A model generated the notes under the pieces. That model made no database searches, was not told where the DNA came from, and worked only from the letters and a program-made list of their open reading frames with translations. A stretch of DNA of 64,000 bases from Ascidia mentula (lineage: Eukaryota > Chordata > Ascidiacea > Phlebobranchia > Ascidiidae). Below are positions 10,701-42,300 of the stretch, in pieces. The translations under genes and the position numbers were made by a program. The DNA lies in assembly GCA_947561715.1 (NCBI GenBank), contig OX387205.1, positions 3,787,001 through 3,851,000 of the forward strand, in the 5' to 3' direction. The stretch's first letter is position 1. Each line of letters opens with the position of its first letter.

Positions 10701-10736
10701 CATGTTTCGGTCGTTATGCAACAGACCTTTATCAGG
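10701..10736 (-). other. Hammerhead-like hairpin motif (locus 1)
   Basis: On the minus strand the segment reads CTGATAA-A, then a GGTC/GACC stem with an 11-nt loop, then GAAAC. It belongs to a set of five loci in this window that share CTGATGA, one unpaired base, a short stem-loop, and GAAA (others at 23651, 25711, 28331 and 41080/41240). The loop TGTTGCATAA is shared with the copy at 28331 although the stem bases differ in a compensating way. It lies about 280 bp upstream of the channel gene start. Confidence 0.5.
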
Positions 10737-11012
10737 ACAATAAACAAAACGCTAACAGTTGGTTAATATTTGCTAGTTTTACTGCAACGACATAATGATG
10801 CCAATAACAGTTGATACGGTGTTGAGTCAAAAAAAAGCTTTGGTGAATGTGTTGAAAGGATTTGATGTGAAATTGTTGCATTATAAAAAACGCTTCAACA
10901 GACTAAGCTGGCACTTGGAATCAAGGCAGTACAAGTTAATGTCAACTTTTTAAAACTGTGACAATAGTAGTCTCAATTGAATTGAAAAGGATTTTCGACT
11001 TAAGCTGAAATT

Positions 11013-12929
11013 ATGTCTCTGGACAGCAATATTCTTCAGACTGACCTGCTCACCATGCATAGAGTGAAACCATGGTGGGAATCATTACGTACGTACCTAC
11101 TAGTAATAATGGTTTCATCTAGTTTCTACTTAGTTTACGATTCAAGCCACAACACATTGAGATGTTTTCCTCTTAATAGTAGCGATACTGAATCGTTTAC
11201 GACTCCCAAAATGAGTTTTGTAAACCAGCAGTGTGTTGTAGAGGCAGAATATGTTCTTATCAACTTTTGGTGGATATCTGTGCTAGCAACTGTTATGTTG
11301 TATGCACTTGCCAACTTTTGGGAACACATTCCAACCGTAGCAAATGAAATTTCGTCATTTCGAAAGGTATTTGACTTGGTTTCGGAATTCGGTGGGTCAG
11401 CAGATTCTCTTATCAGATTAGTAACCACTGCTGGGTCGCCTGAATCGTCCAAATTTGAACACAGGCAACTGACTGTATGTCGGCAGATTGCGAAGGCATT
11501 CTATAAAATCAAACAAACAGAAGCCAAGTCTGAAAGTGTACAAACAGGAAACAGGTCTGAAAGTGTACAAACAGAAAGCGGGTCTGAAAGTCAACCGGCA
11601 ACAGATACTTTTGAAACACGTGTTTATGCTGCACAAAAAGATGTTGAAGATTTTGTAAATTACTTCGTTGAACATTTTCCCCCACACGAGGATTTCGCCA
11701 TAAATGATTCTTTTACCTTCCTGGACAAATACGAAGAAGACATGACACCAAAGTTAGATAATATGCTAAGGCAAGTCTGTTTGTTCCAATCCGAAGAGCA
11801 CACAGAACTATTAAAATATAGACACGATTCGCCTCATTTGGTGTTACGTTCAATCAACAAATCAGAATTATTGATAGAAGAATCTGAAATAATCCTTCAA
11901 GACATCGATGTTAGTTTAAATAAACGAGTAGACACATATTGTTACTTGCTGGCTCTCCGACAAGTGGAAAGTGTCCGCAAATTAAAAGAAAGATTTTCCG
12001 ATTTACTAGGTACCAGTGTCCGTGATATATTGATAAGTATTAAGGGTGATTCTCAGACAATGAAAACACTGGAATTACGTGATAGCCGAAGGACAAATTT
12101 CGAAAAATTAAGACAACTTTACAACAATAATCCCGGCGGTGGATCCATTAATAACCAGTTAGGTGGTAGCTTTGATCAACCCATTGACGAGTTATTAAAA
12201 AAAATCCAAAAGTTAAATGAAGATTCAAATAAAAAAACGTCGTCGAAACGGGACGGCAACAAACATTGGAAGATAAGAAGTTGTGTAAGCTGCATACAGA
12301 CTGTTAGAAATGTTTATTTTATCAGAAATGCGGTGTCTGTAGCATTTTCCATAACTGTGATTGTAGTTTACGTGCTAGCTATGCAAGCTAACTCGCCGTA
12401 TGAAGGTTTTGTGTGCAAAAAGACCTACCAATGTGTCTACAACTCGTACAATGCACCACAAGTCGTCGCGTACACCCAGAGTATTGTCTTGTTTGTTAAG
12501 TCGCTTATTTTTGTTGCCCTCTTCTTTAAATTCCCCTTCAGAAACAACAAAGATGAAGATTTTCTTCTGTCTTTAAGCAAACACAGCGGACAAACAAAAA
12601 ACGTTGAACACTTCAAAAAGCTTCGACAGGGAATTAAACAAAACCAAGAAAAAATTGCCTATCAATTGCGAAAAAACCTAATTCCAGCCTTATACTCTGA
12701 CAATCTTGGATTTTTTCTTTTTTATCTTGAACTTACTGGTGACAACATTAAAGAATTTTTAGAAAGTTCCTTTGTACAAGCAAACCATGACAAAAGAGTA
12801 GCTAGAAAGATTACCATGCTGAACTCCTTTAAATTGCAAATTAAAATGCATAACAGCCAAACAGACAACAACAAAGTTGGCCACGAAAATGAAAGTTCAA
12901 ATCATAATGATGAAGAATCTTTGGTGTAA
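11013..12929 (+). CDS. LRRC8/pannexin-like four-TM channel protein without LRRs (638 aa, single exon)
   Basis: The open frame runs unbroken from ATG 11013 to TAA 12929. The N-terminus resembles the pannexin-like membrane domain of LRRC8 volume-regulated anion channels: VKPWW at residues 18-22 directly before TM1 (about 26-42), loop 1 with Cys51 and Cys74, and TM2 (about 80-100) ending in ANFW. A long cytoplasmic loop of about 330 residues follows; it is charged and contains a repeated SESVQT motif near residue 175. TM3 lies at about 437-457, loop 2 has Cys at about 467 and 473, and TM4 is at about 488-508. The tail continues with LYSDNLGFFLFYLE, similar to the LRRC8 segment after TM4. It ends at residue 638 with no leucine-rich repeats, whereas LRRC8 proteins are about 800 aa with many LRRs. 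Two cysteines per loop is the pannexin/innexin pattern. Channel function is inference. It is intronless among intron-rich neighbours. Confidence 0.68.
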   Translation: MSLDSNILQTDLLTMHRVKPWWESLRTYLLVIMVSSSFYLVYDSSHNTLRCFPLNSSDTESFTTPKMSFVNQQCVVEAEYVLINFWWISVLATVMLYALANFWEHIPTVANEISSFRKVFDLVSEFGGSADSLIRLVTTAGSPESSKFEHRQLTVCRQIAKAFYKIKQTEAKSESVQTGNRSESVQTESGSESQPATDTFETRVYAAQKDVEDFVNYFVEHFPPHEDFAINDSFTFLDKYEEDMTPKLDNMLRQVCLFQSEEHTELLKYRHDSPHLVLRSINKSELLIEESEIILQDIDVSLNKRVDTYCYLLALRQVESVRKLKERFSDLLGTSVRDILISIKGDSQTMKTLELRDSRRTNFEKLRQLYNNNPGGGSINNQLGGSFDQPIDELLKKIQKLNEDSNKKTSSKRDGNKHWKIRSCVSCIQTVRNVYFIRNAVSVAFSITVIVVYVLAMQANSPYEGFVCKKTYQCVYNSYNAPQVVAYTQSIVLFVKSLIFVALFFKFPFRNNKDEDFLLSLSKHSGQTKNVEHFKKLRQGIKQNQEKIAYQLRKNLIPALYSDNLGFFLFYLELTGDNIKEFLESSFVQANHDKRVARKITMLNSFKLQIKMHNSQTDNNKVGHENESSNHNDEESLV

Positions 12930-13499
12930 GCACAGAACTTCAGTTGATAATGTGTGAAAAACTTGTTAATTGTGTTTCGTTGATATTGTTATTATCTACC
13001 GCCATGTTGTTTAATTCGTCGAGTCCTCCGACTCCTGTACATTTTCTGCACTTGTTCGTTAATGTTTTTGATTTCGCTTAGATTCCGCTGTGTTCAAATT
13101 TAACTTGCAAGTACTTAAAATCGTAAAATCACATAACTCGAAAACAATACAATGCAATCAACATCAAACAGTTACTATCACTTACTATCACAAAATTTTA
13201 ATTAGGTGCGAATTTACTGTTGTATTCTTGAGTCACAAACAGTTCAAGAGTATGAATAAACGGTGCGCAGGTTTTTATGGGCAAACGCAAACACGCAAAT
13301 AACGCCAGGAACGCAATTAACACAAACTGAAATGCGCAGTAATTCTGCAGGCGCAAACCACATTGCAAGACGCCTTGCTTACACAGCGAACATAAAACGT
13401 CCTTTTGTTGGGTTTCTGTAGGACAGAAAACAATGCAATTACGCAACACCTCCCTGTCAGTATTTGGTAATGGTACAACGCAAAGGGGACACTAATAAC
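12930..13499. other. Intergenic, no gene seen
   Basis: This is AT-rich sequence downstream of the channel gene. It should contain that gene's 3' UTR. I see no exon, RNA gene or repeat I can name before the retroelement fossils begin near 13500. Confidence 0.45.
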
Positions 13500-14009
13500 C
13501 GTAGAATTTGGCTTCGGACGCCGCTTCGAGCGTCGGGGTAAACTTTCCCCGTGCGACAACTCCTGTTGCGCCGCAGGTGTACGAATATCGTCAGAACTAA
13601 TAATAGTCTCAGTTTCGCGCGTATTTGGGTTAAAGTTTGTCAATATGTCTTCTTCATATCGGCTCTCGTTGAATAACTTGAATCCAAACACTTGGATTCA
13701 GTGCGGGGACCCATAGTGGGTCTTTTTCACGCCGTGGTCCGTAATATGGTGCTTGGCGGCGGTATTGCGTTAGGTAAATCGTTAACACTTTATGAAAGTT
13801 TACATCAAACGCTCCACCGCCCCATAGGTCGCGGGATGATACGATGCGCCTGTAAAGTGAACAATGCCTTGTAACCGCAGCTTTTTAATTTGTAGCTGTG
13901 GTGTGCTGCTCAATTGCCGCTGTCTATACTCGTACGTACACTTTCCCACTTGTTTATTCAATTGGTGTGGTCAAGGTTGTTAGCGTAAGGTTTTCTAGAC
14001 ATAAATACA

Positions 14010-14144
14010 AGCGATAAAACATACAAAATTCAAATTTAACAAAATAAGCCACACTTACCGACAGTAAGGTGTGATTAAGCAACATAAAACGTGCGCTTTC
14101 AAACGTGCGCTATTTATTTGGCGTATCAAGCCTACAAGCGACAG
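14010..14144. repeat. LTR-like direct repeat, left copy
   Basis: This matches 16236-16390 in direct orientation, from AGCGATAAA to CCTACAAGCG, with few differences. The pair brackets the BEL/Pao pol remnant. The visible match is shorter than a typical full LTR, so only part of each LTR may survive. Confidence 0.75.
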
Positions 14145-16235
14145 TTATTTCGTTGCGTTCAAGACGCGAAACTTTGGCGATTACACTCCGGCCCCTTTAA
14201 GGACGAGAGAATGGAGTGCTTAACACAACAAATTGATAATAATACGCAAGAAAACACCTCATTTTGTTACAGCTTCCACTATTAAGCAGATTTTGGTAAT
14301 GGGTCTTTCTATAAAGCCATTTTTAGTTTCAATTTTAACAGACCGCACCAGCCCATCGTGGCTGGACGGAAAAGTGGCAATAATGCGTCCAAGAAGCCAG
14401 GTGCCTCTGGGCATATTTTCGTCAACAACACAAACAATATCATTAGCAATAAAATTGCGATGAGGTTTGACCCATTTCTGGCGTTTGTCCATCAGTGGCA
14501 AATATTCCTTCAGCCACCCCTTCCAAAATAGGTCCGCTAGATATTGAACTTGGGGCCATCTGCGCCTTGAATAAATGTCTCGTTTGGTAAAGGAGCCGAC
14601 AGGAAACGGCTGGTCCGACTTTAGATGTAGGAGGTGGTTTGGAATCAAGGGCTCCAAATCATCAGGATCGCTGGACACCGTTGTCAGAGGTCGCCCATTA
14701 ACAATTGCCTCCGCTTCACACATCAGAGTTGTTAAGCCATTATCGTCAAGGACTTGCTCCTTGGTGATGGCCGATAGCACCTTTCGTACAGTACGCATGG
14801 ATCGTTCCCATATTCCACCGTGATGGGACGCACCTGGGGGATTGAAGTGCCATTTGATCTGGTTTGAAGACAAAAAATTCACAAATGTAGTTTGGTCCAG
14901 CTCTTGGAGCGCCTGCCACAGCTCTCGTTTGGCACCGACGAAATTGGTTCCATTGTCGGAACGAAGCTCGGCCACTTGTCCTCGTCGAGCAATGAACCTG
15001 CGCAAGGCTAAAATAAAAGAACTTGTGTCCAAGCTATTTGCTACTTCTATATGAATAGCTCTGGTTGTAAGACAAGTAAATAATGCTCCGTATCTTTTAA
15101 CATGCGATCGAGCGCGCTTTACATTGAAAGGACCAAAGTAGTCAACTCCCACACACGTAAACGGCGGCTTATCGTGGGTTAACCTGTCCTCGGGTAAGGA
15201 CGCCATCTGTTGTACGCCACGCCTTCCCGTTCTTCTTTTACAGTCCACACAACGGTTCAACACAGAACGTACCAGAGTATTAGCTCTGACCATCCAAAAT
15301 TGTTCTCTTATCAGAGCCAAAACGTATTCCCTTTCACTGTGGCCAGAAATTTCGTGAAAATGTCTTGCAATTAGCTGAGAAGCGCGGCCACGTCCGGGCA
15401 AGATTACTTTGTGGTGAACTTTAAGCGCTTTACAAAGGTTAGTTCTCCCACCAACACAAATTAGTTCATCAATTAAACAAGGATTCAAGTTATAAATCGA
15501 ACTGGATTCGTGAATAGGTTTCCGCACTTTTAGGAGCTTTTACTCCTTACCGTATGTTCTTGTTGAACCATAAAGAGTGTTCGATTTTTCGCCTGCTTCA
15601 GTTCATCTACGGTTAGAGTGCCTAAAGTTGTTCTCTGATCAGGATTGCGTAACGCGTCTGGAAACCTAAGAACCCAACCAACAATACGAATCATCGATTG
15701 CCAGGATGAGGACCTCTCCAACACCCTGTGCAAAACACTGTTGAAATTTGTAACAACAGCACATGTTGTTGCTGCAAGTTTAACTTCTGGATCATTATCT
15801 GGAATGACGTTCAAGAAATTAGGCTGTCGAGGAAAACCAGTATCACGGCACCAAAGAAAGTCTGGCCCCTTCAGCCATTGTTTACACTTCAAAAAACTCG
15901 TAACTGTTAGTCCCCTTGACGCGTGGTCAGCAGGGTTGTCTAGAGTCGGCACATACTTCCACTGGCATGACTTGGACATATTCAAAATTTGAACAATGCG
16001 ATTTGCAACAAAAGTATGAAAGCATTTGCTGGTATTACAAATATATCGCAACACTGTTACACTGTCGGTCCACAAGATTACAGAATCAATGTCAAGTTGC
16101 AATTCCTTTACCAAAATATCAGTTTGTTTTGCTGCTACGTTTGCAGCACACAGCTCCAACCTTAGGACAGTCATTGGTCTGCGAATTTGGTATGCGAATT
16201 TGAAAACCTAAGGTATCAGCATCTACTCTCCAGTT

Positions 16236-16390
16236 AGCGATAAACATACAAAATTCAAATTTAACAAAATAAGCCACACTTACCGACAGTAAGGCCTGAT
16301 TAAGCAACATAAAACGTGCGCTTTCAAACGTGCGCTATTTATTTGGCGTACGCTATTTATTTGGCGTGTAATCAAGCCTACAAGCGGCAG
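16236..16390. repeat. LTR-like direct repeat, right copy
   Basis: This is the partner of 14010-14144. It is slightly longer because of a short internal tandem duplication of the block CGCTATTTATTTGGCGT. Outside the shared block the two copies diverge at once on both sides. Confidence 0.75.
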
Positions 16391-16875
16391 CAATACATTC
16401 TGAACTCACCCGATGTAAACGAAGGTGCGTTGCCGGTCACTACTGATTGTGGATGTCTGAAAGGCGAGAAATCTTGATCCAGAAGATCCATTGTTGCTTT
16501 AGCGGTGATTGCTTGAGTGCGGTGAATGCAAGGATACTTCCAGGCATCAATAAGTCCAACCAGTTATAACCCATAAAATTTATGGCATGGCCGGCACAAA
16601 TACAACTCCATGGCTTCTCGGGTAGTATCCATGGATGTACGGGAGCTTTCGGCATTACGTTTCTGTGCTCGTCAAATGTGCCACACTTTCGACACATCCA
16701 CAATGTCTCGATCAGTGTTTGGCCAGTACACCAGTGTCCTGGCCAGTTGTTTCGTGCGCTGCGTGCCGAAATGGCCCAAATGCAGTAGCTACAAAACTTT
16801 GTAACGTAGTTTTGTTGGAATAACGATTCTGGAGCCATACATCAGCATGCAATGTGACGTAGTGAGGAAAATCTG

Positions 16876-17064
16876 AATGTGCAAACTCCTTCCCGTGTGA
16901 CCGGTGTTAAGAAGAATATTTTATTTCCGCTCAATACGAGTCGACGCTTTTTAGAAGGGGTGTGTCGAGGGCGTGGTTCGGAGTGTTTACCTGCCAGGGG
17001 GAGCTACAGGACGACCTCCCGTGCGGTGGTTCATTGTGTCTTGTTTCGTGGGGCGTACTTCGTG
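16876..17064 (+). repeat. Dispersed ~190-bp repeat, copy 2
   Basis: This is the second copy of the repeat at 6801-6991, in the same orientation. It starts about 40 bp beyond the gypsy integrase remnant, so it may be a flanking or untranslated part of that element family. I see no feature that settles this. Confidence 0.75.
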
Positions 17065-18115
17065 TCAACGTGACGTTGGTGCTGTGTATTTGAAAAGAGC
17101 AAATTATTGTGAATTCGCAGTTTAAAAGCCTGTAATACATTTAAAATGTGATTCAGCTGCTTCATTGACAGCAACTGGGCTGATCACAAGCACATAAAAT
17201 AAACGAATTACCTTGACTGTTGATTAGTTCGAAATTAACCAGATTTATTTCCCTTGCTTTTGCATTTATTTTCGAAGTAAATACTACCCTTCTCAGTCAG
17301 CTGATGGTAATGTATGAGCGAGTTTCGCGTTTCGCTTTGGCCAGCACGGCCGGGTGGCCACCCTCCGTCACATGCAACCTGTCGCAACCTGTCGCAACCC
17401 ATCACCCCCCAGTGCGACTGGCTGCGACCCTACTCCGTGAGGAAATCACTTTTACATGGGCGCCAGACTCGATAACCTTTATGGTTTTGTATATTGTTCT
17501 CTGCGTATTTGACTCATTTCCACGCGGATTTGCTTTTGTTTCATGGACTGAAAACTTGTATATTTCACTACAAAAAATAGGAATGAACACCTCATTGATA
17601 TTTCGCAAGTGTGAAACAGCGCAATGCTACAAATTCAACATGGAAATCTAATGCGCAACGACAGCAGCAAAATTTCAAGTCAATATCGGCCAAAAACGCA
17701 TGCAATAAATATCAAAATACACACATATATATTCCGTTGTATGTATAAAGAAAATCACTGTTGCTAGAGTGACAGGCTGTGTTTACTGCTTTGCGTCTAA
17801 TTCGGTTCTTTTTCATTCCTAATGCAATGTTTTTTTGGAAATTTTGGACTTATCAACTTTGGAAAAAAAACACCCAAGGTAGTTAAAATGAATCGACCAA
17901 TGTTTCGTGTCTACTAAACGCTAGAAAACAAGATTGACTTCAATGAGAGGTACAAGGCAGAAATTGCTGATGGACACAAATAAACAACACCATCAGAACC
18001 GACCGCACTTAAACAAACCGAACTACACAAATATTTTGTACAAAATTACTAATTTTAGCAGAAACCTTTGCCTTTTCAGTGAAAAGGCACGACTATGCTT
18101 TCACTAACAGACATA
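17065..18115. other. Intergenic: 3' flank of the lectin-type adhesion GPCR
   Basis: This stretch lies downstream of the minus-strand GPCR stop at 18116 and should include its 3' UTR. A run of CTGTCGCAAC units lies near 17380-17400. The segment GATAACCTTTATGGTTTT (about 17472) recurs almost exactly at about 29300 inside a GPCR intron, so a short mobile repeat may be present. No exon was recognised. A 143-codon open frame at 17220 has no coding features. Confidence 0.45.
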
Positions 18116-21100
18116 TTAGTTAGTGATCACAATTCCACTGTCATGACTTTCGCTGCTCTGCGGTCTCCCATTGGCTGAAACCTTGGCAGATTCAAATTCA
18201 AGGTGACCAATCATGTCGTCAACCGCGTACGGGAGTCCATTAGGCGCCAGAACTTCTAACGAGGTTGAGTGAGCTTTTGTTGACCAAGCTTCGGGCACCA
18301 AACGTAGGTTGGGTGTTCTGCGTCTGGGCTTTCTTGCTTTGGGACCGCGGCGTCTTGTTGGCTTGGAGCAGTTACCAGCTGTTGCTGGTCGTTTTGAAGA
18401 AATCACTTTTGCCTTCGGTTTTCCGGATTTCTGTGGCTTCTCGCTGTTAAGGCGCAGTTTCCTGGGGTTCTTGTTGCAAATTGTGCACAATCTAGAAGGG
18501 ATAATATCAAAAGTTGTAGTTTTCGTTTCGATTAATAGAATTGAACAGTATACATTGGCGAGGATGACCGCCATTTGGTATGTTGAATTTTTTTGATTTA
18601 GTTTCGCAGTGTGTTGGGTCCATTCCTATAGTTTCGCTTGTATCGTGCACATTGTAATGTTTATAGACTGAACATTCTTACCTTGATTGACACATCAAAT
18701 CGTTACGACCACATTTGTGGTTAACCAACTGACGGCGACCAGAGTGAGCACATTTCTTTTCAGTATTCTTCTTATTTTCGACTTTATCTTCATCCAAAGT
18801 CACTTGTTGCCGTTTGACCTCTTCAGCACCTTTCGGTGCTTCTCCTAAGGACATTTCATTCATATTTTTCTCAATGGAGTCAGAAGGATTCGGATCTCCG
18901 TCTCCGGATTCGGATTCCAATAAATCTCCTCCAGCCCCATTTGATCCACATGATCCGGAGCTGAGGTGATGCAAGCATCCGCATCCTCCTTTTCCAACCT
19001 TCTGCGTCACAGCATCACAAAACACGTCGTCCGCGCTTTCGTGGCAAACCGATTCTGATTGGTCGGCGCTCTCCCAATCGGCGCCTTTGCTGCTGTCATG
19101 TGTCATGACAACCGTCACTTCCGGACATACACGACCTGATTTCGGTCTAAGTGACGTCAGAGATACAGCTAGTGGCGCTATTCGCTTTGAAATCGAATGA
19201 CCGCTGCTCGGACGCGACGGAAGCGTCGACCCAATAAAATCCATCACTCCCTGCGACGAAACAAACGGTTTTTACTTTAACTGTTACGTCAGTATACGTT
19301 ACTTGCAATGGATAATCTTTTTGCACAAAATCACTTTTAGACCCATTGCAAGTACGTATGCTGGTACTAATGTGTGGAAAATATTTGTATGGCCAAAAAT
19401 TGATTTTTACTGTTTAGTTGTGGTGTAAGATATTCTGTTTTTGTTCATCTTCAGGTTAGTTAGTTTGTTCCGCAAAACAAAGTACCGCCGTTTACATCAT
19501 GCGATTCGTTTGCTAACAAGAGGATTAAAAAAGTGACTTATACAGACAGATTATGCACTACAATAAGTAATTTACTGATTTGTTGCTAATTTAATGGCGT
19601 AGTAGCCAAGCAAATTGTACACGTATTAAAACCACTCATATACGAACATTAAATTCCCCTCCTTGTGGATTTTCAAAGTTAGGTGAAGTGTTGCCAGAAC
19701 TGTCGGGTGTAGTGGGGGAAAGTCTAGTGAGGAGACTGGTGGAGAAACGACGAAACCAATTGGTTTGGTCCATTGTCGGCAACTTCGGCAAGTCGACGTT
19801 GTTCTGAGACAATAAACATAGATGTGGGTTTTACAGGTATCATTTTTGCAATGCAATTTTTAAAAACACGAGCAATAAATAAAACTTTTTAAAATAATTA
19901 TCGGAATCTCCAAATAGTCCAGCAAAGACTTTGTATCTGATTTATTCTACAAGTTAAATAACAAAAACCCTAAGTCATTTGTTGATTTTTTTTGTATATT
20001 TCAACACGTTGTTTTTTATTGATACTGCCGCTGCCTGATTGTAGGCGAAATAAATATATCAGAAAGAACGTAACAAGTGGCTTAGGTTATTGTTGTTTAA
20101 ACTTGTTGCACAAGTAATAAAGGTGGATGTTGGTTTTAACCGCACGAAGGACAAGTATAACAACAAAACTGCCGTATTGTAATTAAAGAAGGGTGATTTT
20201 TGTAGACTGTATTTTTGCATGCATTTTAGCAGTCAAGTGTTGTGAAAAATTCTCACCAGGAAATTCCGTTCTCGAAGTCTTTTTTTGTCTTCCCAAGCGC
20301 TCCTCACCTCTGGATTGAAAACAACGTAGAAGAGAAACAAATAGAATCCCTGTAGCAAAATCACAAAACTGAATGTAGGTTGATTTTACAGATCTTCAGA
20401 AGTTATGTCGCAAAATGCGTTTAAGGTATTGGGTTTATTTCTACCTCGTCTCTCGCAAACCAAAATAATACTAGACCAATAAATCGTTTTATCTCAGAGA
20501 AAGCCTATAGCTGAATAGCACGTGTGAAAAGTCAGTGAATAAATGTGCACGTTTAATTGTGCAAGAAAAGATTAATTAAAATCGTTTTAAGCTGAATAAA
20601 AAAAACACTCTTTTGCGCTAAGCAGTAGTAAACGTACAACTTTTGGACAAATCTTTTGGCCTAAACAACAAAAAAACAGGTCAAAATTGTAAGTGATTCA
20701 AGTCAAACAACGCATGCCTTTGCATGAAACTTTACTGTGTTGTCTGATTATAATGGTAGTGATCCCTTACGTGTATGTAAAGGTTGCCTAACAAGTTGTG
20801 CGCTTGTGCACTAGTGTACCTCGGCCACAATATAAGCCGTGAAACTACTGAGCTCCTGCAGCTCAGTTTGTAGAGCGTTAGGCCTGGTTAGCCCAGGGTC
20901 GTGAGTTCAAACCTCACCGGGACCTTGATTTTTTAGATCTTGCTCCGACTTTTCGGGAAAAAGGGGATGATCCAACTAGGCTCCATTGGCTGCAAACCTA
21001 GATCAAGTCAATATTATTACCTGGAATGAGTTGCAGAATATGAAGGCGTAAGCAAACACTACGTTGCTCTGGCTTAAGAATCCGAAGATCCACGTGACAC

Positions 21101-24100
21101 CAAGAAGGGGGGTAAGAACCGCTACGCCGCGGGTCGCAACTTTAAAATCGCGAAGCCACATTTCGTGAAAGTGCGGTTTCTCATTCGTCACAAACTTTCG
21201 CCCAAGCTTTCTATGTTTGGTGGCAACGGCTACACTGAGCACTCGACCAAGAATGACGAAGTTTACCTAAAATGTATTAGAATACGGGTTTTGTTTGTAT
21301 TCTTCTTGGTAATTGGTTGTTTTCTTGATTTTATTAAATTGGTTACTTAGTTTAATTAAATACAAATACATTATGCCTCATTAATGTTTACTTTCTAATA
21401 AGATCATGTATATACTTCATACGATATGCGTTTTTAGCTGATGTTTTCCTAAATATTGCTATCGGTTTGCTTGTTTTTTAAATTGTGTTTTTTACATTAA
21501 AACGCCGGTTATAAGCGTTGGTTACTTTGCCAGTACAGAAACGCAAGAAAACCAAATCAAATTTATAAATTTAGAAAGTAGAGTAGGAAAATCTGACTAT
21601 GGTGTTTCTGCAACTAACCAGCAAAATAATCAGCGCAGGTCCAGCAAAAGACCAGACAACACCATTTTCCACAGCCAACCAGCACCTAAATACAATGAAT
21701 TAGGCTTTATGGTTGGGTCGGTTTGACACCAACAACTAACTCTACCTGGTATCATTGTACGGTCTCTCTGTTGCAGTGCAAATCACAAATGAAAGGAAAA
21801 CAATCAGAAAAGGCATCAACCATCCGATGACGTAATATTTCCTCTCAAATACGGGTGTTTCCCGTGTTAGAACGATCAGTATTTTCCTAAAAGATTTTCA
21901 AAGATTTCAATTTTCGTTTAGGGAAAAAGTATCATTCCATACAAATTCACTGCGGGTTTGTTGGCAAAACAAGACACAGTAAAAGGTAAAAAATGAGTAC
22001 CTAATCACCCGCTAACTTATTTACAACCATTTCTTATCTGTCCTGAGCATAGCTTGAAACGTTTGGTCTTAGTGCCGTATTTATAGCATCGTTTCCAAAC
22101 CAGTGACTAGCCATTAGCGGTCCGCCAAGTTTTGTCACCAAACAGATACGTAAGTTACAAAGTTCACAGTTTGTATGTGACCGCGTCTTTTTGATTCTAA
22201 TTGTTAATGCTATAACCCAGTGGTGGGCATAGGTGCTATTGTGAGATTTATAAATATATAGAAACAATTCTCATAGTTGTCAAGGAAATTTGCCGCAATA
22301 TCTCAAAGTGGAAATATTGGGTTTAAAACCACTGACTTAAACCATATTGTTACGATTTAATTGGCAATATACAAAATCTTTGCAGTTTGAGTTTACTTGT
22401 ACAAGATAAATCCCTCCACCAACATCCAGCCAAACGAAACAAGCAACCCGAAATGAAGCAAAAGAGCCATCGTCGTGCACATTGCGTCATCGCCGGTGAC
22501 GTCATCTTCCAATGTTTTTTTACGTATTTGGCTGACGAGTAGCGTCGAGTATGTGATCAAGAGGCCGACAACCAAATGCAAATGGACTTTGATGCGATCA
22601 GATTTGAGGAAACTGTTAAACGCATTTAACTGAGGTTTTAAATGGTTGATAAGAATGACATTCGTTTAGTAGGTTTTACGTTCAAATATTTTATAATTGA
22701 TTCACTTGATGCAATGTGGCCTAGAGGCTGATCACTTTCATTGAAATACTCAATTATTCGGTAAATCTTGCTTTTCTTTTACTTATTAAAAAGCTGATAG
22801 ACATATATGTCTTTACAAAATATCTGTTTGATCTTAGCCTACTGAAACACAGTTTCACATATCGACATTAATGTAATGATATTTCTAAGGAATTGACCAA
22901 CCTTCTCAGGATAAAGTAGGTCAGTGCAGTCGTTATTAACGACAGAATACTGAAAGATTCCCCAATAACTGTAAGTATGAATATCGAGGCCTCGTGGTCA
23001 ACCGACAACTACAAGAAAATATTGTTAGATTTCGTTGGGAAAATAATCTTAATTCCGTTACATCATCCGAGGGAGTGTAGACGAGTAGAAGAACGGCAAA
23101 GTCAGTGGTGTGATTACATGCACACTGGTACACTCCCTCCTCTTGTGACTGACTTTCGTAGCAACCGCTGTCAGACCATATTGCTTCCTGCTCGTTGTAA
23201 ACAATATAGGAGCAGGTCTCAGATCGATTGATGGTGAGAACGTCGGAAAATTCGAACTAAAAACAAATGACTTCGCAGTTAAAAACAAATGTTTTTGTTT
23301 TGGGGAAAATAATACAAAGAACAGAAATGCTTTGTCTTTGAGTTAAAGCATTCAGGAATAAAAAGAAATAGAATAATTTGTTTAAGAAAAACGATTTGTT
23401 TTACTCCCAAACTGGAAGATATTGCAGTATCTTTTATTATCGCAGTATAGTTGTCAAACTTATTGGCTGGTTGGTATTTGGTTGTATTAAAACACAATGC
23501 ACAATTACAATGTGATTAGTAAATCAAATCTGGATCAAAAAAACCAAAGGCCCCTGGCAGGCTGTCGATCGCACACCGTATCAATAATAATGTATTAAAA
23601 TCCAAACACAGCGATCTTCAGACAGCTCAGATCGATTTATTTAGAGAAAAATATATTTCGCCTAAAACGGCATCATCAGTTTCTCCATTTACCAAAACTG
23701 CCAAAAAGGAAAAACAGAAAGGAAAAAGTCAAGAATCTAACGCAAAAAGGTTACGCAAGCTAAAAATTAATAAAAACTATAAAAATATTCAGGTTTCAAG
23801 CATAATGCACAATTACATTTCATGAACGCTCAAATCGAGAAACAATCTCGACAGTTTTAAAACTTGATTGTTTCTGTTATAAATTACTTTTGGGAGATAA
23901 AATTGGACTGGAGTTGGAATGCTTTTGCCATTTATCCGCAAGGTGGCGGTAACGATCGGTGTGGCAATTCTCCACGAAGCTTCTTCATCGAGTTTAACCA
24001 ACTTGACGTGTGTTCGTCCATTGCTTGTAGTCACCTACAAGTAAACAAATCTTTCTAAGCCTATCTATAATTCATTGCACTAATGTATGGTTTAAAACTA

Positions 24101-27100
24101 AAGGGCTTCGTGAACCGCGAACCGCGAACCGGTTGTTCCAGTGATCAACAACCATATGTGTAGGCCTATGTTTCACTTCGAGCACTGTATTCCCACGGTT
24201 ACTATGGAATGCTGCTAATGAGAGAACCGGATGCTAAAATATTTCAATCACCCAACAGTCTAACAAGATTTATATATAAAATAGGAGAAGAACCTTATTA
24301 TTATTATCCGCATAAATTATCCAATTTTTTACCGGCATATAGCGTAACATATAAATCATATTAATACGAAATGTGAAGAATTTATACAAATTGCCTGTTG
24401 CAAATTTTGCCTTAAGCTGCACCAAATCTTCCATACAAAATCCTTTTTCCGAAAACATTTAGCTTTGCATTCCGATGTGCTAAGTAACGAATACACAAAT
24501 TTACTTACAAATGACGGGGCCATTTTTACAGCTGCTTCCTGGTGATGTTTGGCAGTCGAAGAATGAACGGCGAAAACAAACGCTGACGTTTCATTTCCTT
24601 CAGTACAGAGTAAACATGGATATTCGGCATAAGAAGTTCTGTTAGATTTTTCAAATCTAGAGCGACTACATTATGGTTTTATTGCGCATGTCTAGGAATT
24701 CATAGGACCATTAACCAGTGTTTTATTTGTGGTAATACATAGGCGCTTCTTGCAGCGTCCGATCTTCTTGCAATTACGGAAACTGGACTGATCTGGTGGT
24801 GTTTGAAAACTTAAAAACGTTTCTATTTACCAACCTGTGAGTACATCAAGGGTGGGTGCGAGGGTAATTTGAGTCCCCTTCTCCACATTTTCCGGCTGAA
24901 AAGTCGCAGCTTCCACGATGTCATTATAATCTGCTTGTGGTTGCGCCAGGACGATTCGGACCTCTGAAAAACGTGGATATGTAAATCAAGCAGTGGTGAA
25001 AGTAAGCCAGAACGGTTGGGAAACGGAACGCCGTTTTGGTGAATAATCATTGCCGGTACGGCGTTCTGGCCAGAATCTAACATCATTTTGGTAACTTAAT
25101 TTATTTTGAAAACAGATTGGTTTATTTTGCCGTGTAGATGTTATCGTTATGGTAAGGTTTTTATATTTTTACCATCACACTTAGATGAAACATTTATCAA
25201 ATGTTTTGTCGTTTTGTTCGCATAGGGATACAGAAACTGAAACAAGAACCAAGGTATAAACTACCTAGAAAGTAGTGCTAAACTGCACGGTATTTGTGGA
25301 GATATACCTGACAATCGGTACATGCGTAGCAGAATGCGTCAAGAACATGTATATATCAAATAACATGTATATCCAAAGACGGTGGTTGACTGTGGCTTGT
25401 TGAAACCGATACAATTTGTAACATTTACTTTAACAGTAGAGATATTTGCCTTGAAAACTAAAAATTTTGATTTTAGTCTTACCACTGGTGTTGGTTTTAT
25501 AATTCAACTGTTTGACGGCCGAGTAAACTTCTTCTTTGCCTTGCTCTTCCATAAATTTATCGGCAAGTTGTTCGGCCAGAGTGTTTACCGCTCTTATTGA
25601 TTGGTACTGGAAAAAAATACTTTCTTTTCAAAAAAAGTTTATGTTAACATCTACTAGTGAGTATAAAGAGACTGGCCCATGTTGTTATTAACACTGTCAT
25701 GTTAAAATAGGACGTTTCGACAAAAACTTATGTCATCATCAGTTTGACTAACGCGATTGGTGTAGCTCCATCATTATAAGGAGCTGACCTGACCGACGTC
25801 ACAGATAAGGCTCGCGCGGGTGGTGACGTCATTTTGCTATCGGCCACACACCACATCTACTAGTGTTTTGGACAGTTGCGGGATTCAAAATTTTTTGTAA
25901 GAAGGGATTCTATGGAAACCAATTAAAACATTTAAAGCAATGTCGCCATTTCCAACAACCGGTTTGCAAGTTATCCTGGGTTCATTAAAAAGTTATTTTA
26001 GGACGAAATATAATTTTGATAACATACCTGACCATTAATATTCACGCTATTAACAGCTGTCGCGTCGGCATCCTCTGACTGCAATGCATCAACTATTGGC
26101 AGCGTGTTTTCGAGTAAAGTTTCTAGTTCTGTGAAGGTGGCGGTGGATAGTGCCGCAGCGGTTCCGTTTGTTTCTTCCCCAGCTCCAACTATCTTATCCA
26201 AAACATCAAGTGCGGCTTCGACACCTTGCGGGCCTAGAGAAGTCATACTCCCGCCGAACACGATATCGAACTCCTCAATTTTGCGCTCAATTTGCTAGTG
26301 AACATTTCACAGAAATTGCGTTTAAAATATATTTCTACTATTTACTTACGCTTGTTTCCAAAGCATGCGAACCTAATCATACGTTACGCAAAGCAAGCAC
26401 TGAACAAATTTATTTTAAAGCAATACAATATACAACGGACTTTTTATGGTTATGGCACGTCAGTGTTTAGCAATATATCACAAACAAGACTGTATTTTCA
26501 TGTTGTTCTTACCGCCATTGGGGACTTTGCATCTTCAGTAGCTAGTTCAGTGGCAGCGTTCGGTGGATATTCACAAATGTATGGAAGAGATCGTGCACAA
26601 GGACTTGTGTACCAGTAATCTGTCAAGCAAACACTTTATTGCAATGTACATACAACCAAAAAGAAAGATAAGATACAGATACAAATTGTAAGTCGTAGTA
26701 ACGAGCAACTATGTAGGTTGAATACATTACCCTGTTCCCCAGTTGCGTTGAAATACACGCATGGCCCAAAGAATGTGAAATTCCTGTCGATATTAAATCG
26801 ATGAAAATCCGTAAAACTTTGATCAGATTCTTCTCCGTCTGGGTCTTCGTATACCAGCTCGTAATCCGAGTCATCAACAAAATCGAATTTACTCCAACTG
26901 TAAGGAACAGTATTTTAACTGTATTTAATTGTTCAGTGGTTAAAGTATTCAAAATCCTCGATGCAAACCATTTTGAAACTGCGCAAATAGACCAGATAGG
27001 ACCAATTGTATAAAATTATTCCAGAGAAGTAATATGTAATTTTTCTACAAAGGACAGATTATATAGGAAGCCGTATCAGTCTTCTCAAACTGAACTGTCC

Positions 27101-30100
27101 TTTAGTGGCATTGGCAGTAAAACTTTGATTGATTAATTTGGTTTTAATTACCAGCTTTTGTGAGTTTTCTACGTTAATCAGGTGTTAATAAAGAAGATGG
27201 AGCATAACTCACGGTATTGCCTCATAAACAATAGCCCATATATGAACAACGAACATTCATTAGGCTATATTGCATAGAGAATGACTGCACAAAACAGCGG
27301 AATTATATGGGTTGTATTATTTGTACTAAAGATACTCTACGGAGTAATAAATTGCACCTGAACATGTGAAGATAGAAATAGAGTTGTGTTTCTCGCGGCG
27401 TCGTCGCGTTAAGATTTAAGCTGTCGCGTGTCGCTTTGATGTCGCAATAATCCAGTGTGAAATTCACCACTCCGTTAACTGCGTCGCCTTTCGACATGAT
27501 GTAATACCCGTTGGTGACTTTTACAAACATGTCCAGAAAAGGGATTTCGATTTTCAGATGCTCGTCCAAGGTTTCCATGTTGCTCTTCATCTCTTTAGCG
27601 AGCTCGGAGAGGATCACGATCTCCCTGCAGTTCCGGACCCTCGAGGGACTGTAAAGGTGGGAATAATCTGATGGAGCATCTTCGTCATCTTCACTCTTGC
27701 TCTTTAACTTTTCGTGGAGCTCGCGCGCCTCCTCGAAGTCCGACTTGTCCCGTATAGTTTCGAGTAGCGAGTACTCGCACACAAATATACGTTTCTCTTC
27801 GCAGTGCTGGATTTTATAGAGAGGGGCTTCCTTTGTGGGATCCTCTACGTTTTCTGTAAATTCCGGTTCTTGTGGAAGGTCCTCTTCATCTTCATCACGA
27901 TTATTTGCTTGGGAACCAAACGATTGCCCTGGGGATCCCGGTGTTGATTGTTGCGGTTCGTACAATACCTATAGTTACCAAGAGATTTTATTGACTGAGA
28001 ATTTCCGGCAGCTTATGTACAGCCATTATGCCGAGGAACTTACACAGCCGTACAAAGAAAACTTTACGAGTTGAATTCGAGAAAACTACACAAATGGCCT
28101 TAAATAAGAATTACAAATTGGAAAACCGGTAAAGAAATATTATGCTACTTTTGCTGTCACGGATACAACAATTTAAACAGGACTGCACTTCTGGAATAAA
28201 TTAACCACTTTATTCTTCCGACGTTGTTTGGTTGTTGTCCAAAGTAAATAAATTGTTACTGACGCTGTCAGGCATGTTTTATTGCTGAATACTGCTCTTC
28301 TGGTAAATTTTATTGTATTTACGTTTCTCGACGTTTTGGCTATTATGCAACAGCCTTCATCAGGAGGTATGAAATGCGAATCAAGCAAAGTTAATATCCA
28401 AAGTACATCTTCCCGTTGACTTACCTCCAAACATGCGCGATCCGACAAGAGGGAAGAATCGAATACAATGGAAGGTTGTAGGTTTGTGTAGTTCAGTGTT
28501 CGGCCGAGGCGATCAACAAATTCCATCGTCAAATCTTCTGAACTTCGACCATCAATCCAATATCCCCGATATGCGGGGCGGTTGGACGTTACAGCACTGG
28601 AAGTCACAAAACGTGAGATTTTATTGAATGTAGTTGATTTTTAGGAATATCAGACGGGGTCACGGGAACACCAAACCATTACTGCACTCTCATCTGTTTG
28701 TTCTTCCGCAAAAAATACAACAAATTTGTTTCAAAAAAAATTCTTTTTAGTATTATATGTTTCCAGGTGGTCAAAATCTACTTTCAGATTTTGTTATTGG
28801 CTACATTACCTAGATAGTTTATTTAATATAGTCTTGACAAAGTGGGTGATGCCAAATGATTAAAATACACTCTAGGAAAAGTTAAAAAGTCATTGCTTTG
28901 TGTCGAAGGGGCAAAAGCTTCGGGAATTCGAAGCAAAAAAATTTATGACGCACCCTGGAACGTGTTGCAGGACATCATGTGTCACAGTTTCCACAAATCT
29001 GCTAGTTGCCTCGTCATCAATACGGACAATGTGTCCCCCGCTGTCCGAACAGTAGGAGCTGGCGTCCTGCCACGTCATCGGTGACGTCACTATTTGGTAA
29101 CAGACGTCGTGTCGGTGGAAACCGGTGAGGCATCGATCGAAGTAGGAGGCGAGAGCTACACAGAGTAATAGTTGTAAGTGAAATCTCTGACGGTTTCAAC
29201 TAAACCTTGTCAACTAAACAGAGTAAACTAAAAATAACTTCTGTTTTTTGCCATGTTAAGAAAAAAAATTAAATGAGAATGTTTTAGACGCCTGAACTAG
29301 ATAACCTTCATGGTTTTATCGGTCTCCATGTTATTTCTTTTGTGGATTGTTCATCTGCGTAGATATTTTTGAGCAAACCACACATGATTTGATTTGATTT
29401 GACGTATTCCTTTGTGGACATTGCGATTTATCCTCATACCAACGTTTCGTATAACAACGCATACAAAATCTTGCAAAATAATGATACCTATTTGCAAAAG
29501 TACATCGCAATACGGCAACATCTGCAAAGATCTGAAGAGTCAGCATACTTAATGCAGGAACGTGGGCGCCAGTCCAGTAATGAGAAGATTCTTGAGAGTG
29601 TTTCCTATTTGCCGCCAACCATTCGTCCACCGGAACAGAGTTATTCCTCATTCTCATCGATTTTCCTTTGCTCAATCGACAATTCGCATCCGCAATCCTC
29701 CAAGGTTCTGCATCAAATATAGGCCGTATTTAGTTCGCATTTTTATACACAACCACATGTCAAACAGGAATATAAATGGGCTGTTTGCTTATATTGCACG
29801 AATTACTGTTGGAAAGGTGGGCGTTGTGCCAATTACATTTTTTGTACGTTTGATTTCGAAAACTCATATAGTACGACAGAAAGTCGGGCATAGAAATCGT
29901 ATGAGTTAACATAATAATTTATTGATGCGACTTTTTTTAAACAAGTTGCTGGTCAAAATTTATGTCAGTACAATAAATATTCTCTTTACAAATCTCATGA
30001 AGGTAAAGAAACGTTCATGTCCATTCCAGGCGACTAAAGCGAAATATGTCGCAATACTGTGATATTAATTATACCTGGTTTTGACTCGAGCCGGTCGCAA

Positions 30101-31601: not shown

Positions 31602-31935
31602 ATGAAGAAGGTAAGTAGAACCACACAAACAGTAGGAAACAACCCGCTCGTTACAAATTCAGATAATTAGCGCGAGTGCTTTCCTGGTGTTCATCCCTCC
31701 TATTTGCCCAGCTTGTCACTTAAACTTTCTCGAGCACTGTGGCGCTAATCGTCCCGCGGCGGAAACAATGCCCAGGCGCTGGAGCTACGTTGATTGTGCA
31801 AGTTGGACCGACAAACCCAAGCTAGTCCTCAAGGATACATTCGACTCGAGGAGATGTCAGAGTGCTCAGGGTCCTGACACCGAGCTGGCGAGAGCGTTAG
31901 AACGGGTTTTTGAGGCGCCCGCCTTGAAGTTGTAA
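31602..31935 (+). CDS. Small secreted cysteine-containing peptide (2 exons, 93 aa)
   Basis: Exon 1 is ATG AAG AAG at 31602-31610, followed by a GTAAGT donor. Exon 2 is 31663-31935 after ATTCAG and ends in TAA. Joined, the protein begins MKKIISASAFLVFIPPICPAC, a convincing signal peptide, and continues with a hydrophilic region of about 70 residues. That region has four spaced cysteines counting from PAC (PACH, EHCG, VDCAS, RRCQS) and two dibasic sites (PRRW, SRRC). The reading frame across the intron is what produces the signal peptide, which supports the model. I do not recognise the family; a peptide hormone precursor or defence peptide are possibilities. It stands between a GPCR and ASPM with its own promoter space. 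Confidence 0.6.
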
Positions 31936-36300: not shown

Positions 36301-39300
36301 AGTTTTTCAACATATATTTGTGTATAAATATTTTTTCCAGGCGATGAAGAGCCCTAAAATGGATGTGACTAGAAAGAAGGGCAGAGCAACTCCAGATAAG
36401 AGCCAAAGAAGGAGCAAAGGTATGGAATATTGAAGACTATTTATTGTTTATTGCAAAGCTTTGTTAAAATAATAAGTAAGTTTTTAATAGATTTTGGCTT
36501 TGTGTCGTTAGAAAAAGTCTGTTAGCTTGACTGCAACTAATACCGTGCATATTTCAACCGTATTTATTGTTTTGAGTGTTGGTACACATTACAATTGTTT
36601 TACCAAGGTTTGGGCACCCCAAAAGGCAAAACTATTCAGAAACTTCGTGCAAGCAAAGCTGGTCGGGCAGCGTTTCCGTCACCTAAAAAATTATCCAGCA
36701 GAAGATCCATGCCAGTACCTTACATGAAGGAAACATTATCTCCGGGCAAAAATAAGAGACGCAGTAAAGTCATGAAGCAACCCACACTTGCCGGCATAAA
36801 GCGTGCAGCTGTGGTGGATGCCAAGAAACCAACAAAGAAAAAAATTGTAAAAGGTGAAGATGCTTGTTGGTGCTTAGATGGTGCATGTCTAATGCTTTGT
36901 TTTAACAAAACCTAATGATAAAAATGTTAAATAAACGTGCTGACTGAGAAAGAAAAAATCACACCAAAGCTATCTTTCATGAAGATAAACCCCCATTAGC
37001 CAATATACGTCTTTTTATCCAGGAGTTCCAATGGCACATTTAGTGTTAAAATCAGACTCGAAAGTTGTGCAGCGAAGACACCCGCTAACTTATGCATCAA
37101 GAAACCAGTTCTACGATGCCAAGTGGAGGGTAAAGCAGGAACGAGCTCTTGCCTGTTGGGCAAACTACGTTTTAACACCTGATGAATTCAAACCTAGCCA
37201 AATGAATGGGGATGCATCAGGTACAACCGATTCAAATCCAATCAATATATTTTTCATCATGTGTTACAAGTGTCATACATGTTTATAAAGCTATTGATGT
37301 GAAAATACTTGCTTCGGCTGCCAAAGTTCAGCCAGCCATGAGTAAAGAGATGGCATCATTGCGAGCATATCGGATCGGATGCAGACTGAACAGTCTTCGT
37401 CGGGCTGCTTGTAACTTGTTTCTCTCCACAAATATCACCAATATTATCCAGAAGGTTGAACAAGAGGTTGACACTGGCCGACTGAAAGTTAGAAGTGACC
37501 GACCATTGTGGAAGGATCTTGGTAAGTTGTATGAGTATTTTATCTAAAACAGGACATTATTTACTTTTAGTGGTCATTTTATGCAAAAGCATACCTAGTA
37601 AACATGGTAACATGTAAATAATTATCAAATTGTTCAGGCTGTCGTCGGCAACTACTTGGCTTTCTAATGAACTTTCACTCAATCTGGCTGCGACTCGGAC
37701 TTGAAGCAGTTTTTGGTGAGACCGTCCCAGTCCCTGGAGGGGATTCTCCTTCGTCAGCTGTGGCCCGATTCATAAAACACAGGTTGCTTCATGATGATGA
37801 CATCGCCCAAACTTATGCCCATCCAACTGTTCCACACTCCTACAGATCTGGGTGAGTTTTGAATTTTGCTTCTTGTTTGCTGTTGATTTTACTGAGTAAT
37901 AAATTGCAAATGTAGATGTGCTGAAACAACTTTTCAAAAAACAGAAAAAAAAATAAAACAAAAAAAAATTGGTTCAAATGTTTGGAACAAATAACATTGT
38001 TGTATGTCATATCAGAATACAAAGAGCAGTCTGAATTGTCCTATATTTAAATCTATATTTATGTTCAGATTTGAAGATGAATTAGGAAAGCACACCCTAA
38101 AGAAGATACTTGTTCTTGTGTATTTTCTTGATCAAGCGAAAGGTTCCAGACTAATAGATCATGACCCCTGTCTCTTCGAAAAGTTAGTCCTAGTGCTATT
38201 AACATAATAAAACCTTATGTCACAAATTGAAACCTAATATTTTTTGAAAGCTTTCACTTACGGCAAAAAACAAATATATATAATTGTTTGTAAAAATTCA
38301 CACTCGACTGTTTAAATTTTTTTTGCAGCAGTAAAAGATTTTAGACTAAAAAGTAAAACATCTCAAAACATATACAGGGGTGCAAAGATAACAAGTTGCC
38401 GAGAGCTGTTGATAAATATATCTCGCGAGTTTTTGAGTGGCGAGGGTGATATCGTTAAACATCTCTCGTACCTTGGTTACCATGTTTCCCACCAACAATC
38501 TTACTTGGATGAGTTTGAATATGGAATTCACAACATAGCTGTTGATTTGAGGTAAGTTAAATACTGCATGTTGTTCTGCAGATCACAAAGTGTGAGTCTT
38601 GCTGGCTATTTAGCTGACAAGAAGTCACACTATAGCTGCACTGATGAGTCATATTAAGCTACAGTGGCCCTGTCTGCAGCTCACTATAAAAATATTATTG
38701 GCTCTATTGCTTATATTTGTATTTTTTGTTCCTGTTTTTGTAAGTAACCATTTTTTAGTATTTACCCAAAGTATTTTCGTTATTGCTCAGTGTTCATTAT
38801 TTAAATTTCATTCATTAAAACATATTTTTTCTATATGTGTTGATTTTTGAAGTATAGACTTCTACATTGTTCCTCAGCTAAAAACGAATTGATTTTTAGG
38901 GACGGTATCCGCCTCACAAGAATGACAGAAATCCTTTTCCACGATTGGAGTTTGTCCTCGAAGTTGAGATTTCCTCCAGGGAGTCTCCTGCAAAAGCGTC
39001 ACAACACTGGGGTAAGTAAAAGGAAAGGCTGCATTGTAAATTGCGGATATTTAATAATTGTTGCCCTAAATCCTGGAGTAATATTTACATCAAAAAGACC
39101 CAAATTATGGTTAGTTTAACGTTTTGGTGGAAATTCATGTAATCATCAATATAAACATAACATAATGCTATTGAAAAATTTATTTAGAAGTATAAATTGT
39201 ATCTTTGGTTTTTATTTTTTGACATCAATAGGTTGCAATCAAAGCACTGGGAAATTACGGTATTTGCACGAAAGATGATGAGGGCAAACCTATAGAGACT

Positions 39301-42300
39301 GAACATATTGTGAATGGAAATTGTGATAAGACGCTCAGTCTGATTTGGAACATTGCTGCTCATTTTCAGGTAAAGAAACAAAGTTAAAAACCTGTGTTTT
39401 AGCCTGAGTTGTGGGGCCAAAGTAGCTAAAAATATTGTGGTAATGTATGCAGTGTTACAACTACTTTCAACCAAACTAAAGCTATCAGCTAAAAAAAAAC
39501 AAAATACAATTATAGTAAAAACTATTGTTGAGGCAATGCAACTAAATACCCCCAAAACTGTGAATTTTGTTATAATTGTTTAAGATGTGTGTAGAGTTTA
39601 TGGTGATAGTTAATAAACTAAAAATGCTATGATAAAGTCAATTGTTTATTCAGGTCTTATTTGTTCATTTTAATACATGTGCATTTGCCTTATACTCCAC
39701 CTTTTTGTACATAGCTTGTCAATGCGGTCAATTGCCAGCAAGTTGAAGATGAAATATCCTTTCTCCAGCGAACCTTGAAGTTAAAACAGACACAGTTTGG
39801 ACAGGAAGTCACAAACCTGGTAAGATACAGTCAATTGTGTATTATTCATGTTGTATATCTTGAAAATGGATGTTGATTATTCACAGGAGCTTGATGCAGT
39901 TTTACTTGGCGCGAATACAGATGTTGAGAAAACCTCTGCTATCCTGCTCAAATGGTGCAAGTATGTAAAATTTTATATTGGTTGTATTACAGTTAATATG
40001 CAAGTAACCAATCTACTGTCTTCTAAACAATTCATGCAAGTTAAGACAAAAAAAACATTTTTTTATGTTAAACATAACATTTGTTATTGCACTATTACAT
40101 TTCTTAAATTTCTGCTTTTTTAATGTTTGTCCACAAGATCCTTAAATTGAATGGGTTTTATGATGTAATGCACTATGTGTTTAGGTATGTATGCGCGCAC
40201 CATGGTGTTGACGTTCACAACTTTGTGAACTCCTTTGCCGATGGACAAGTCATGGCTACCCTCATATCTCACTACCAACCACAACTTATTGCACCAACTA
40301 ACATCAGATGTGAGACGACACTGAACATGGGCGATGTGGGACCCGATGAGGTAGTGTCGTTATTCTCTTACAATACAAATAGAACTCTTAAAATATGTAT
40401 AGGAATCTCCCAACAGTCTAATGGGTAAAAAAGAGATTTTTTTAACAAGTTATATAAGGGAAAACCTAAGTCAATACAACCTATTAGAATATGTGATACT
40501 GACGATGCTGAATCGTAGGCGAAATAATATCAAAAACAAGAGAAAGACAAATGACTTAAGTCTTCTGTTATATAATCTCTTACAATACAAAACAAAAGCT
40601 GGTATCAAAACAGAAAATGAGTATTGTGTCTTTTATTTCCAGGATATCTCTTCACAGTCATCAAGAGAAAACTATTTGAAGTTACAAAAAAATGAGAAGG
40701 TATTTGATTCTAAACTTCCGAAAATTACATCTGTAATAATTGCATCAGCCCTGTTATATTTTTAAATACAGGCCAACTTTTTGATGGTTAAAAAGGCTGT
40801 GTATGAGCTTGGGGGGATACCCTCATTGATATGCATCGATGATTTTTGTGGTACGATCCCAGACAGCAAAGTAGTGCGCCTCCTGGTGGCTTGCCTTTGT
40901 ACAAGACTGATTGATGTCCGCGTTGAAGAAAGGTTTGAAAAAGAGCATTGGTATCATAGTGATAAAAAGTTTCTGTATAAAACATAATAAAAATAGGAAC
41001 ACAACTCACAGGTTTTCTCATAATTTGAGAATAAAGAGACTGGCCCATATTGCTATTAACACTGTCATGTTTAAAAGAAGACGTTTCAGCAAAAACTTAT
41101 GCCATCATCAGTTTGAACGACGCGATTGGAGTTGACCAGACCGATGTCACAGTCGTCAACACCCGCGCGAGCCTTATCAGTGATGTCGGTCTGGTCAGCT
41201 CATTATAATGATGGAGCTACACCAATCCCTTCCTTCAAACTGATGATGACATAAGTTTTTGCCGAAACGTCTTCTTGTAAACATAACAGTGCTAATAGCA
41301 ATATGGGCCAGTCTCTTTATACTGAGAATAATAAAAATACTTCTCTCAATTTAAGCTCCAAAAGTCACAAAAGCTATGATTTTAGCCTTGATGAAAGGCA
41401 ACATGAATTGTGCTTACTTTTGGCCTTATAAAATGAAGAATACTGGTGCTGTTCCAGAATCAACAAACCTTATTTTCTCTGCAGAGCTGCTCGGATAATT
41501 CAGATCTCCTGGGCAAATTATATAGCACGGAAGAAAGAGAAGCTTGAAAGGGAAAGAATTAAAGAACTGGAGGAGAAAGCAGCCACATGCATTACTTCCT
41601 TCTTTAAGGCGTGGATTTGCAGAAAGAGGTAACCTTGGCAACCAAGTATGTTACTTGGCATACACTTGTAAATAATTAACTTCCAATTATTTTTGCCACA
41701 TTCATCCAATTTTTTAAAAATGCTAAAAACCACAAATGTCAACACATACACAAAAAATAATATAAATTATTTATAAATGTAAAATGCAACATGGTTTGGA
41801 AATGACATTTATTATATTGTTACAGTGTTTTCTATCATTGTACAGGTTTCTGAAAGAAAAGCATGCTTGCCAAGTAATTCAGAGCTGCTACCGTGGTTAC
41901 CAAGCAACCAAGCTGGCCAGAGCAGAATTTATTGCACAACGAAGGGCAGCTATTCGAATTCAAACCAATGTGCGAATGGTTTTAGCAAAACTGCTAGTGA
42001 AAAGACTGATGGACGAACAAGCTTTATTACAACTTCAGACCAATGCAGTTATAGTGCTACAGGTATTGTTTGTGTGTTGGGACATATGGCATTAAGTCAC
42101 CAAATACCTAAGTTAATTGTGGGTATTTAAGTGTAGGTGGTAACACTGTTTTATAAAAAAAGATTTATTTTCTTGTAACTCGAGTGCATTTTACTAGATT
42201 CTCAATTGGCAATCTGACATTTGTTCACAGAGAATGTGGAGACACTATCGGGACCAAAAATTGCAACACAAGTCTGCATTGGTCATTCAAACATGGTTTC

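Follow-up and report, generated by a model that had tools for sequence, protein, structure and literature searches.

Putative minimal hammerhead ribozymes in the terminal repeats of three Penelope-like retrotransposon families of Ascidia mentula

A stretch of 64,000 nucleotides from chromosome 9 of the ascidian Ascidia mentula (contig C73; hereafter the window) contains several copies of a short hairpin in which the words CTGATGA and GAAA, characteristic of the hammerhead core, enclose a small stem. This raises the question of whether the hairpin is a ribozyme and what kind of element carries it. As judged from the sequence, position, pairing and covariation observed here, the motifs of three repeat families, A, B and C, are very probably minimal type I hammerhead ribozymes located in the pseudo-long terminal repeats (pLTRs) of three families of Penelope-like elements (PLEs), a group of retrotransposons; dimerisation, cleavage and a role in transposition are what we infer from them. 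The material compared comprised the window and 76 fetched loci, and the genome searched consisted of 195.8 Mb in 79 contigs.

The position of the motif relative to coding regions was surveyed in 28 entries, which include overlapping loci and correspond by coordinates to at most 22 places. In 24 of the 28 entries (8/12 in family A, 7/7 in B and 9/9 in C), the motif follows the stop codon of a GIY-YIG endonuclease frame that runs on its own strand; in none of the 28 does it occur on the opposite strand within 1.5 kb. In family A, locus L040 contains separate reverse transcriptase (RVT_1, E 6.1e-13) and GIY-YIG (E 5e-4) frames upstream of the motif and on its strand, with the motif 271 bases past the frame end; the stop-to-motif distance in the eight entries is 176–1088 bases. 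Family B is represented by a 367-residue piece of the frame, carrying GIY-YIG (E 4e-4) and ending 457–466 bases ahead of the motif in 7/7 entries; its units are spaced by about 3.49 kb, for example at positions 9253291, 9256784 and 9260277 of contig C52. A single frame with both RVT_1 (E 1.6e-6) and GIY-YIG (E 0.004) is present in locus L053 of family C, where the motif follows the stop after 143 bases (140–143 in 9/9 entries), and in locus L055 the order is frame, motif, frame, the next frame beginning behind the motif. The GIY-YIG scores in A, B and C (17.8–21.1 bits) are just below the Pfam cut-off of 22.6, and the three endonuclease regions have aligned Y, C-C, Y-G, R, H and E columns in common. 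Comparison of the proteins with solved structures gave weak matches to group II intron and retron reverse transcriptases, plus noise. A plasmid search yielded no match and is uninformative. Tandem copies (B and C) and inverted pairs are also present, as expected of PLEs. All three families thus trace to Penelope-like retrotransposons. Since the place of the motif behind the stop is constant and the proteins are 24–39% identical between families (local alignments over 31–183 residues), the motif is a fixed part of three old PLE lineages.

The initial annotation had listed five loci sharing CTGATGA, a 3–4 bp stem and GAAA or a close variant. The words and all the stems it named do exist, but there are six copies in three families: A (25742-, 41111- and 41240+), B (23679-) and C (28363- and 10735-). 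Nor are the loci independent, the three A copies being one dispersed repeat and 28363 and 10735 being akin, with the loop TGTTGCATAA in common and many relatives each. GAAA is present at 23679-, 25742-, 41111- and 41240+, whereas the core of 28363 is altered to AAAA, and 10735, which reads CTGATAA, departs from the hammerhead core. The stem of family C folds as 7 bp around GCAU in L053, instead of 4 bp. Stem pairing is mostly kept, as in the GACA/TGTC and GGCA/TGCC versions found genome-wide, but the GACA/TGCC stem of 41240 is broken at one pair. These two versions may reflect one ancestral change passed to two subfamilies. With its varying positions left free, the family A motif pattern has 113 matches in the genome, and the reversed pattern has 0; at the 100 places listed, the stems counted by eye were fully Watson-Crick in 87, contained G-U in 6 and were broken in 7. 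CTGATGA occurs 15 times in the window against 7.4 expected (1/100 shuffles attained 15), and CTGATGA-N6..24-GAAA occurs 4 times, at the four GAAA sites above, against 0.73 expected (0/100 shuffles attained 4). The motif copies are far above chance because they are repeats.

Pairing was analysed in 35 distinct copies selected with a pattern that contains the core words and so excludes more decayed copies; CUGANGA, GAA and the A15.1-U16.1 pair are invariant or nearly so in this selection. Since copies within a family are kin, the following cell counts exceed the number of independent events. Under the hammerhead pairing, 87.3% of cells are paired against 70.9% in shuffles, 38 cells are changed on both sides against 11.2, and the covariation score is 0.421 against 0.153 (0/500 shuffles in each case); control alignments with slid partners gave only 31–53% pairing. 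Stem II is paired in 98.6% of cells. In an arm-swap test with 720 arrangements of six representatives (B, the better-pairing short form of A chosen for its stem I, three C-like copies related to one another, and family D, a second hammerhead kind described below), the stem I arms formed 16 of their own pairs against a mean of 8.2 (2/720 arrangements equally good) and the stem II arms 17 against 13.0 (4/720). Stem I comprises 7 pairs in B (GGAGAAA/TTTTTCT, two of them G-U), 3 in C and short A, and 0–2 contiguous pairs in long A. The fold z-scores are -2.58 for B and -3.27 for C, and weaker, -1.82, for A. Cleavage is predicted at the NUH triplets present, GUC in A and C and AUA in B. The additional base that follows the core was taken as a warning sign in the initial annotation; reportedly, it is a known type of variation.

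Stem III consists of two pairs without a loop, GAAAC|GUC in A and C or GAAAU|AUA in B, so that A15.1-C15.2 directly adjoins G16.2-U16.1; its pairs are kept at 97.1% in the 35 copies. Being loop-less, this stem can be formed only between two copies and not within one molecule. The palindromes involved are ACGU in A and C and AUAU in B, and dimerisation is suggested by them; in B the second pair of stem III is changed on both sides and is still self-complementary. It is possible, and we propose it tentatively, that B represents a natural compensatory double change from ACGU to AUAU, accompanied by the change of the triplet from GUC to AUA and by a stronger stem I, which would be direct evolutionary evidence for an intercopy stem III. 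The change in B, as one event in one lineage, is suggestive only. The loop-less stem III agrees with published descriptions of PLE hammerheads, which lack helix III and may act as dimers (PMC7761336, PMC6155905). In free folding of dimers, the minimum-energy structures use pairings other than those of the dimer model.

In the mechanism that these features suggest, tandem element copies would be transcribed into a single RNA, in which each ribozyme would pair stems I and II internally and take the two-pair stem III (ACGU or AUAU) from a second copy. Cleavage would follow GUC in A and C or AUA in B, releasing unit-length RNAs with the 5' end upstream of the reverse transcriptase/endonuclease frame; from the predicted cut to the ATG that opens the following frame there are 53 bases in C and 166 in B (one locus). 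Most likely, the ribozymes would serve the processing of dimerised copies, perhaps aided by the protein of the element, as reported for the PLE of the green anole. In a review, the role of PLE hammerheads was termed a mystery (PMC7761336).

Several alternatives have to be weighed. Window copies do stem from three repeats, which inflates their count, so a chance resemblance in ordinary repeats might be suspected; it is highly improbable, as the same core occurs at the same position in three families with 24–39% identical proteins and the stems are exchanged. The fixed place of the motif in three old PLE lineages also rules out an accident of transposon ends. A C/D box small nucleolar RNA (snoRNA), with TGATGA resembling box C, is hardly credible at all: Rfam snoRNA models match the motif stretches, but every match is far under the gathering score, box C begins with a purine whereas CTGATGA is found here, GAAA is absent from the snoRNA model, and the motif sits at a fixed retrotransposon position.

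A more serious, although unlikely, rival views the motif as a hairpin in the end repeat of the PLE that has a structural role or binds protein; its core would be hammerhead-like, with cleavage lost or never present, and it may serve the protein of the element or the start of reverse transcription. The ribozyme of the anole PLE, the one such element studied with purified protein, shows no cleavage without protein, its mutants insert normally in vitro, and no RNA-seq reads start or finish at its site (PMC11167929). These data weigh against a ribozyme function, as do several results of our own. The long form of A, which is the common one, has a poor stem I (in the 25742 copy, 1 of the first 3 positions is paired), the column pair 10-50 is unpaired in 23/35 copies, and an A copy folded without constraints adopts a competing hairpin masking CTGATGA. 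Two covariation measures do not exceed shuffles (pairs changed on both sides, 5 vs 4.0, 81/500; further pair types, 9 vs 8.2, 183/500), and the arm swap of stem III is weak (12 vs 11.2, 120/720). Four of the 12 family A entries have no motif behind the stop (L024, L030, L031 and L039), L031 and L039 being a single place and L030 stopping short of the neighbouring copy, and no RVT_1 match was found in the partial frame of family B, the fetched sequence of which excludes the reverse transcriptase core. The search with Rfam hammerhead models proposed in the initial annotation gave no match for A, B or C in the whole window or in short stretches, a scan of the whole window returning tRNA only; this absence is uninformative, because even a three-stem copy of family D scores below the gathering score. 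On the other hand, the eleven invariant alignment columns include the catalytic core letters, exceeding the needs of a binding hairpin, and stem I covaries.

Minimal hammerhead ribozymes of PLEs therefore remain our preferred reading. Of the tests suggested by the initial annotation, covariation is found for stems I and II on several, not all, measures and is weak for stem III, while flanking stems can form as stem I in B, C and short A, poorly in long A, and as stem III solely between two copies. The suspected hammerhead likeness and Penelope link are supported by the covariation, by an NUH site flanked by stems I and II, and by the constant location past the endonuclease stop codon in three families that have diverged.

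The copies in the window are listed below. A search model, R1, was built from 18 copies that belong to families A and C and lie outside the window. It recovered the copies at 28363, 41111, 25742 and 41240 with E values from 9e-17 to 3e-13, but 10735 only at E 0.26; across families it matched B only at E 0.62, level with two apparent chance matches (E 0.59 and 0.81).

Repeat copies and hammerhead motifs in the window
Feature	Positions	Strand	Evidence
5'-truncated family A end repeat (pLTR fragment from a Penelope-like element)	25646..25854	-	43 fetched loci match; at least 51 genome matches
Family A putative hammerhead motif CTGATGA-T-GACA..TGTC-GAAA-CGTC; predicted cut 3' of final C	25711..25742	-	R1 E 4.1e-14
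Two family A end-repeat copies in inverted orientation	40970..41337		Repeat comparison, fetched-locus matches
Family A putative hammerhead motif, GGCA..TGCT, terminal pair G-U	41080..41111	-	R1 E 2.4e-15
Family A putative hammerhead motif, GACA..TGCC, one broken pair	41240..41271	+	R1 E 2.9e-13
Family B end repeat, young	23505..23803	-	Identity of 99.7% with L075 (298 bp) and 100% with L072 (224 bp)
Family B putative hammerhead motif CTGATGA-T-GCC..GGC-GAAA-TATA	23652..23679	-	Fold z -2.58; cross-family model R1 E 0.62
Family C end repeat, degraded	28244..28388	-	Fetched-locus matches
Family C putative hammerhead motif, 7-bp stem II, AAAA replacing GAAA	28330..28363	-	R1 E 8.9e-17
Family C relative, decayed: CTGATAA, ATG replacing GTC	10701..10735	-	R1 E 0.26
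Family D decayed copy of three-stem hammerhead repeat	38634..38681	+	Preserves GTC and stem I (AGCTGCA/TGCAGCT); has lost stem II as well as GAAA

The six copies of A, B and C are relics or solo ends, because the matched stretches are fragments with no coding region nearby. Family B is the youngest of them: its copy is a solo end with 99.7–100% identity to other copies, which suggests recent activity. Identity was 98–100% in all 41 family B matches listed (40 of 496 candidates scored in the genome search; 40 of 598 for family A). The inverted family A copies are about 86 bases apart, and the same head-to-head layout was observed at positions 13708721/13708861 of contig C70 and at two nearby places.

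Family D, cagctgcaCTGATGAGACC..GGTCGAAACAGTG...CTGTCTGCAGCT, was found in loci L018 (2580-2655, -), L039 (5491, -, and 5930, +) and L048 (2522, -), as well as in the decayed window copy, which is absent from the initial annotation. It lacks the extra base after the core and matches RF03152 with 34.4 bits (E 1.3e-4), the gathering score of 56.3 not being reached. The best fold of the L018 copy is a three-stem hammerhead (z -1.40), and the L048 copy folds otherwise; the window copy has no hammerhead match in Rfam and a fold z of 0.29. Family D repeats frequently occur in inverted pairs.

Other features of the window include a 1600-residue open frame with IQ-like repeats (42198-47000, +), which we take to resemble ASPM, and open frames that, judged by eye, resemble an integrase and an RNase H from a different retrotransposon (14259-16207, -). 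A tRNA-like sequence (20852-20925, +; Rfam 34.5 bits) is perhaps a tRNA-derived repeat, since the surrounding stretch 20795-20992 matches three fetched loci.

In the limited literature collection searched, no report on retrotransposons of Ascidia mentula and nothing related to hammerheads in tunicate Penelope elements was found. Minimal type I hammerheads, probably dimeric, have reportedly been described in PLE pLTRs. The Ascidia mentula motifs resemble them in the type I core, which lacks a proper helix III, the pLTR location and the probably dimeric action, and differ in forming three families in this host, B having GAAA-UAUA instead of GAAA-CGUC. Among tunicates, 9 type I hammerhead loci are reported in the Didemnum vexillum genome paper. 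The ribozyme of the green anole Poseidon PLE likewise has stems I and II and sits where the pLTR meets the ORF in a GIY-YIG PLE, but its cut is 26 bp inside the frame and not ahead of the first ATG (PMC11167929). Inverted pLTRs like those at 40970-41337 are known from Penelope elements of bdelloid rotifers, in a paper with a main text that does not contain the word "hammerhead" (PMC3846280). Family D shares its three stems with the RAGATH-1 hammerhead (RF03152) and metazoan retrozymes (PMC7229834), whereas A, B and C have no looped stem III and do not match RAGATH-1. Both the kind of ribozyme and the kind of element are known, and the host, the families and the compensated stem III of B are new; three diverged families, one of them very young, tandem and with another stem III palindrome, offer a naturally occurring test case for the dimer model proposed for PLE hammerheads.

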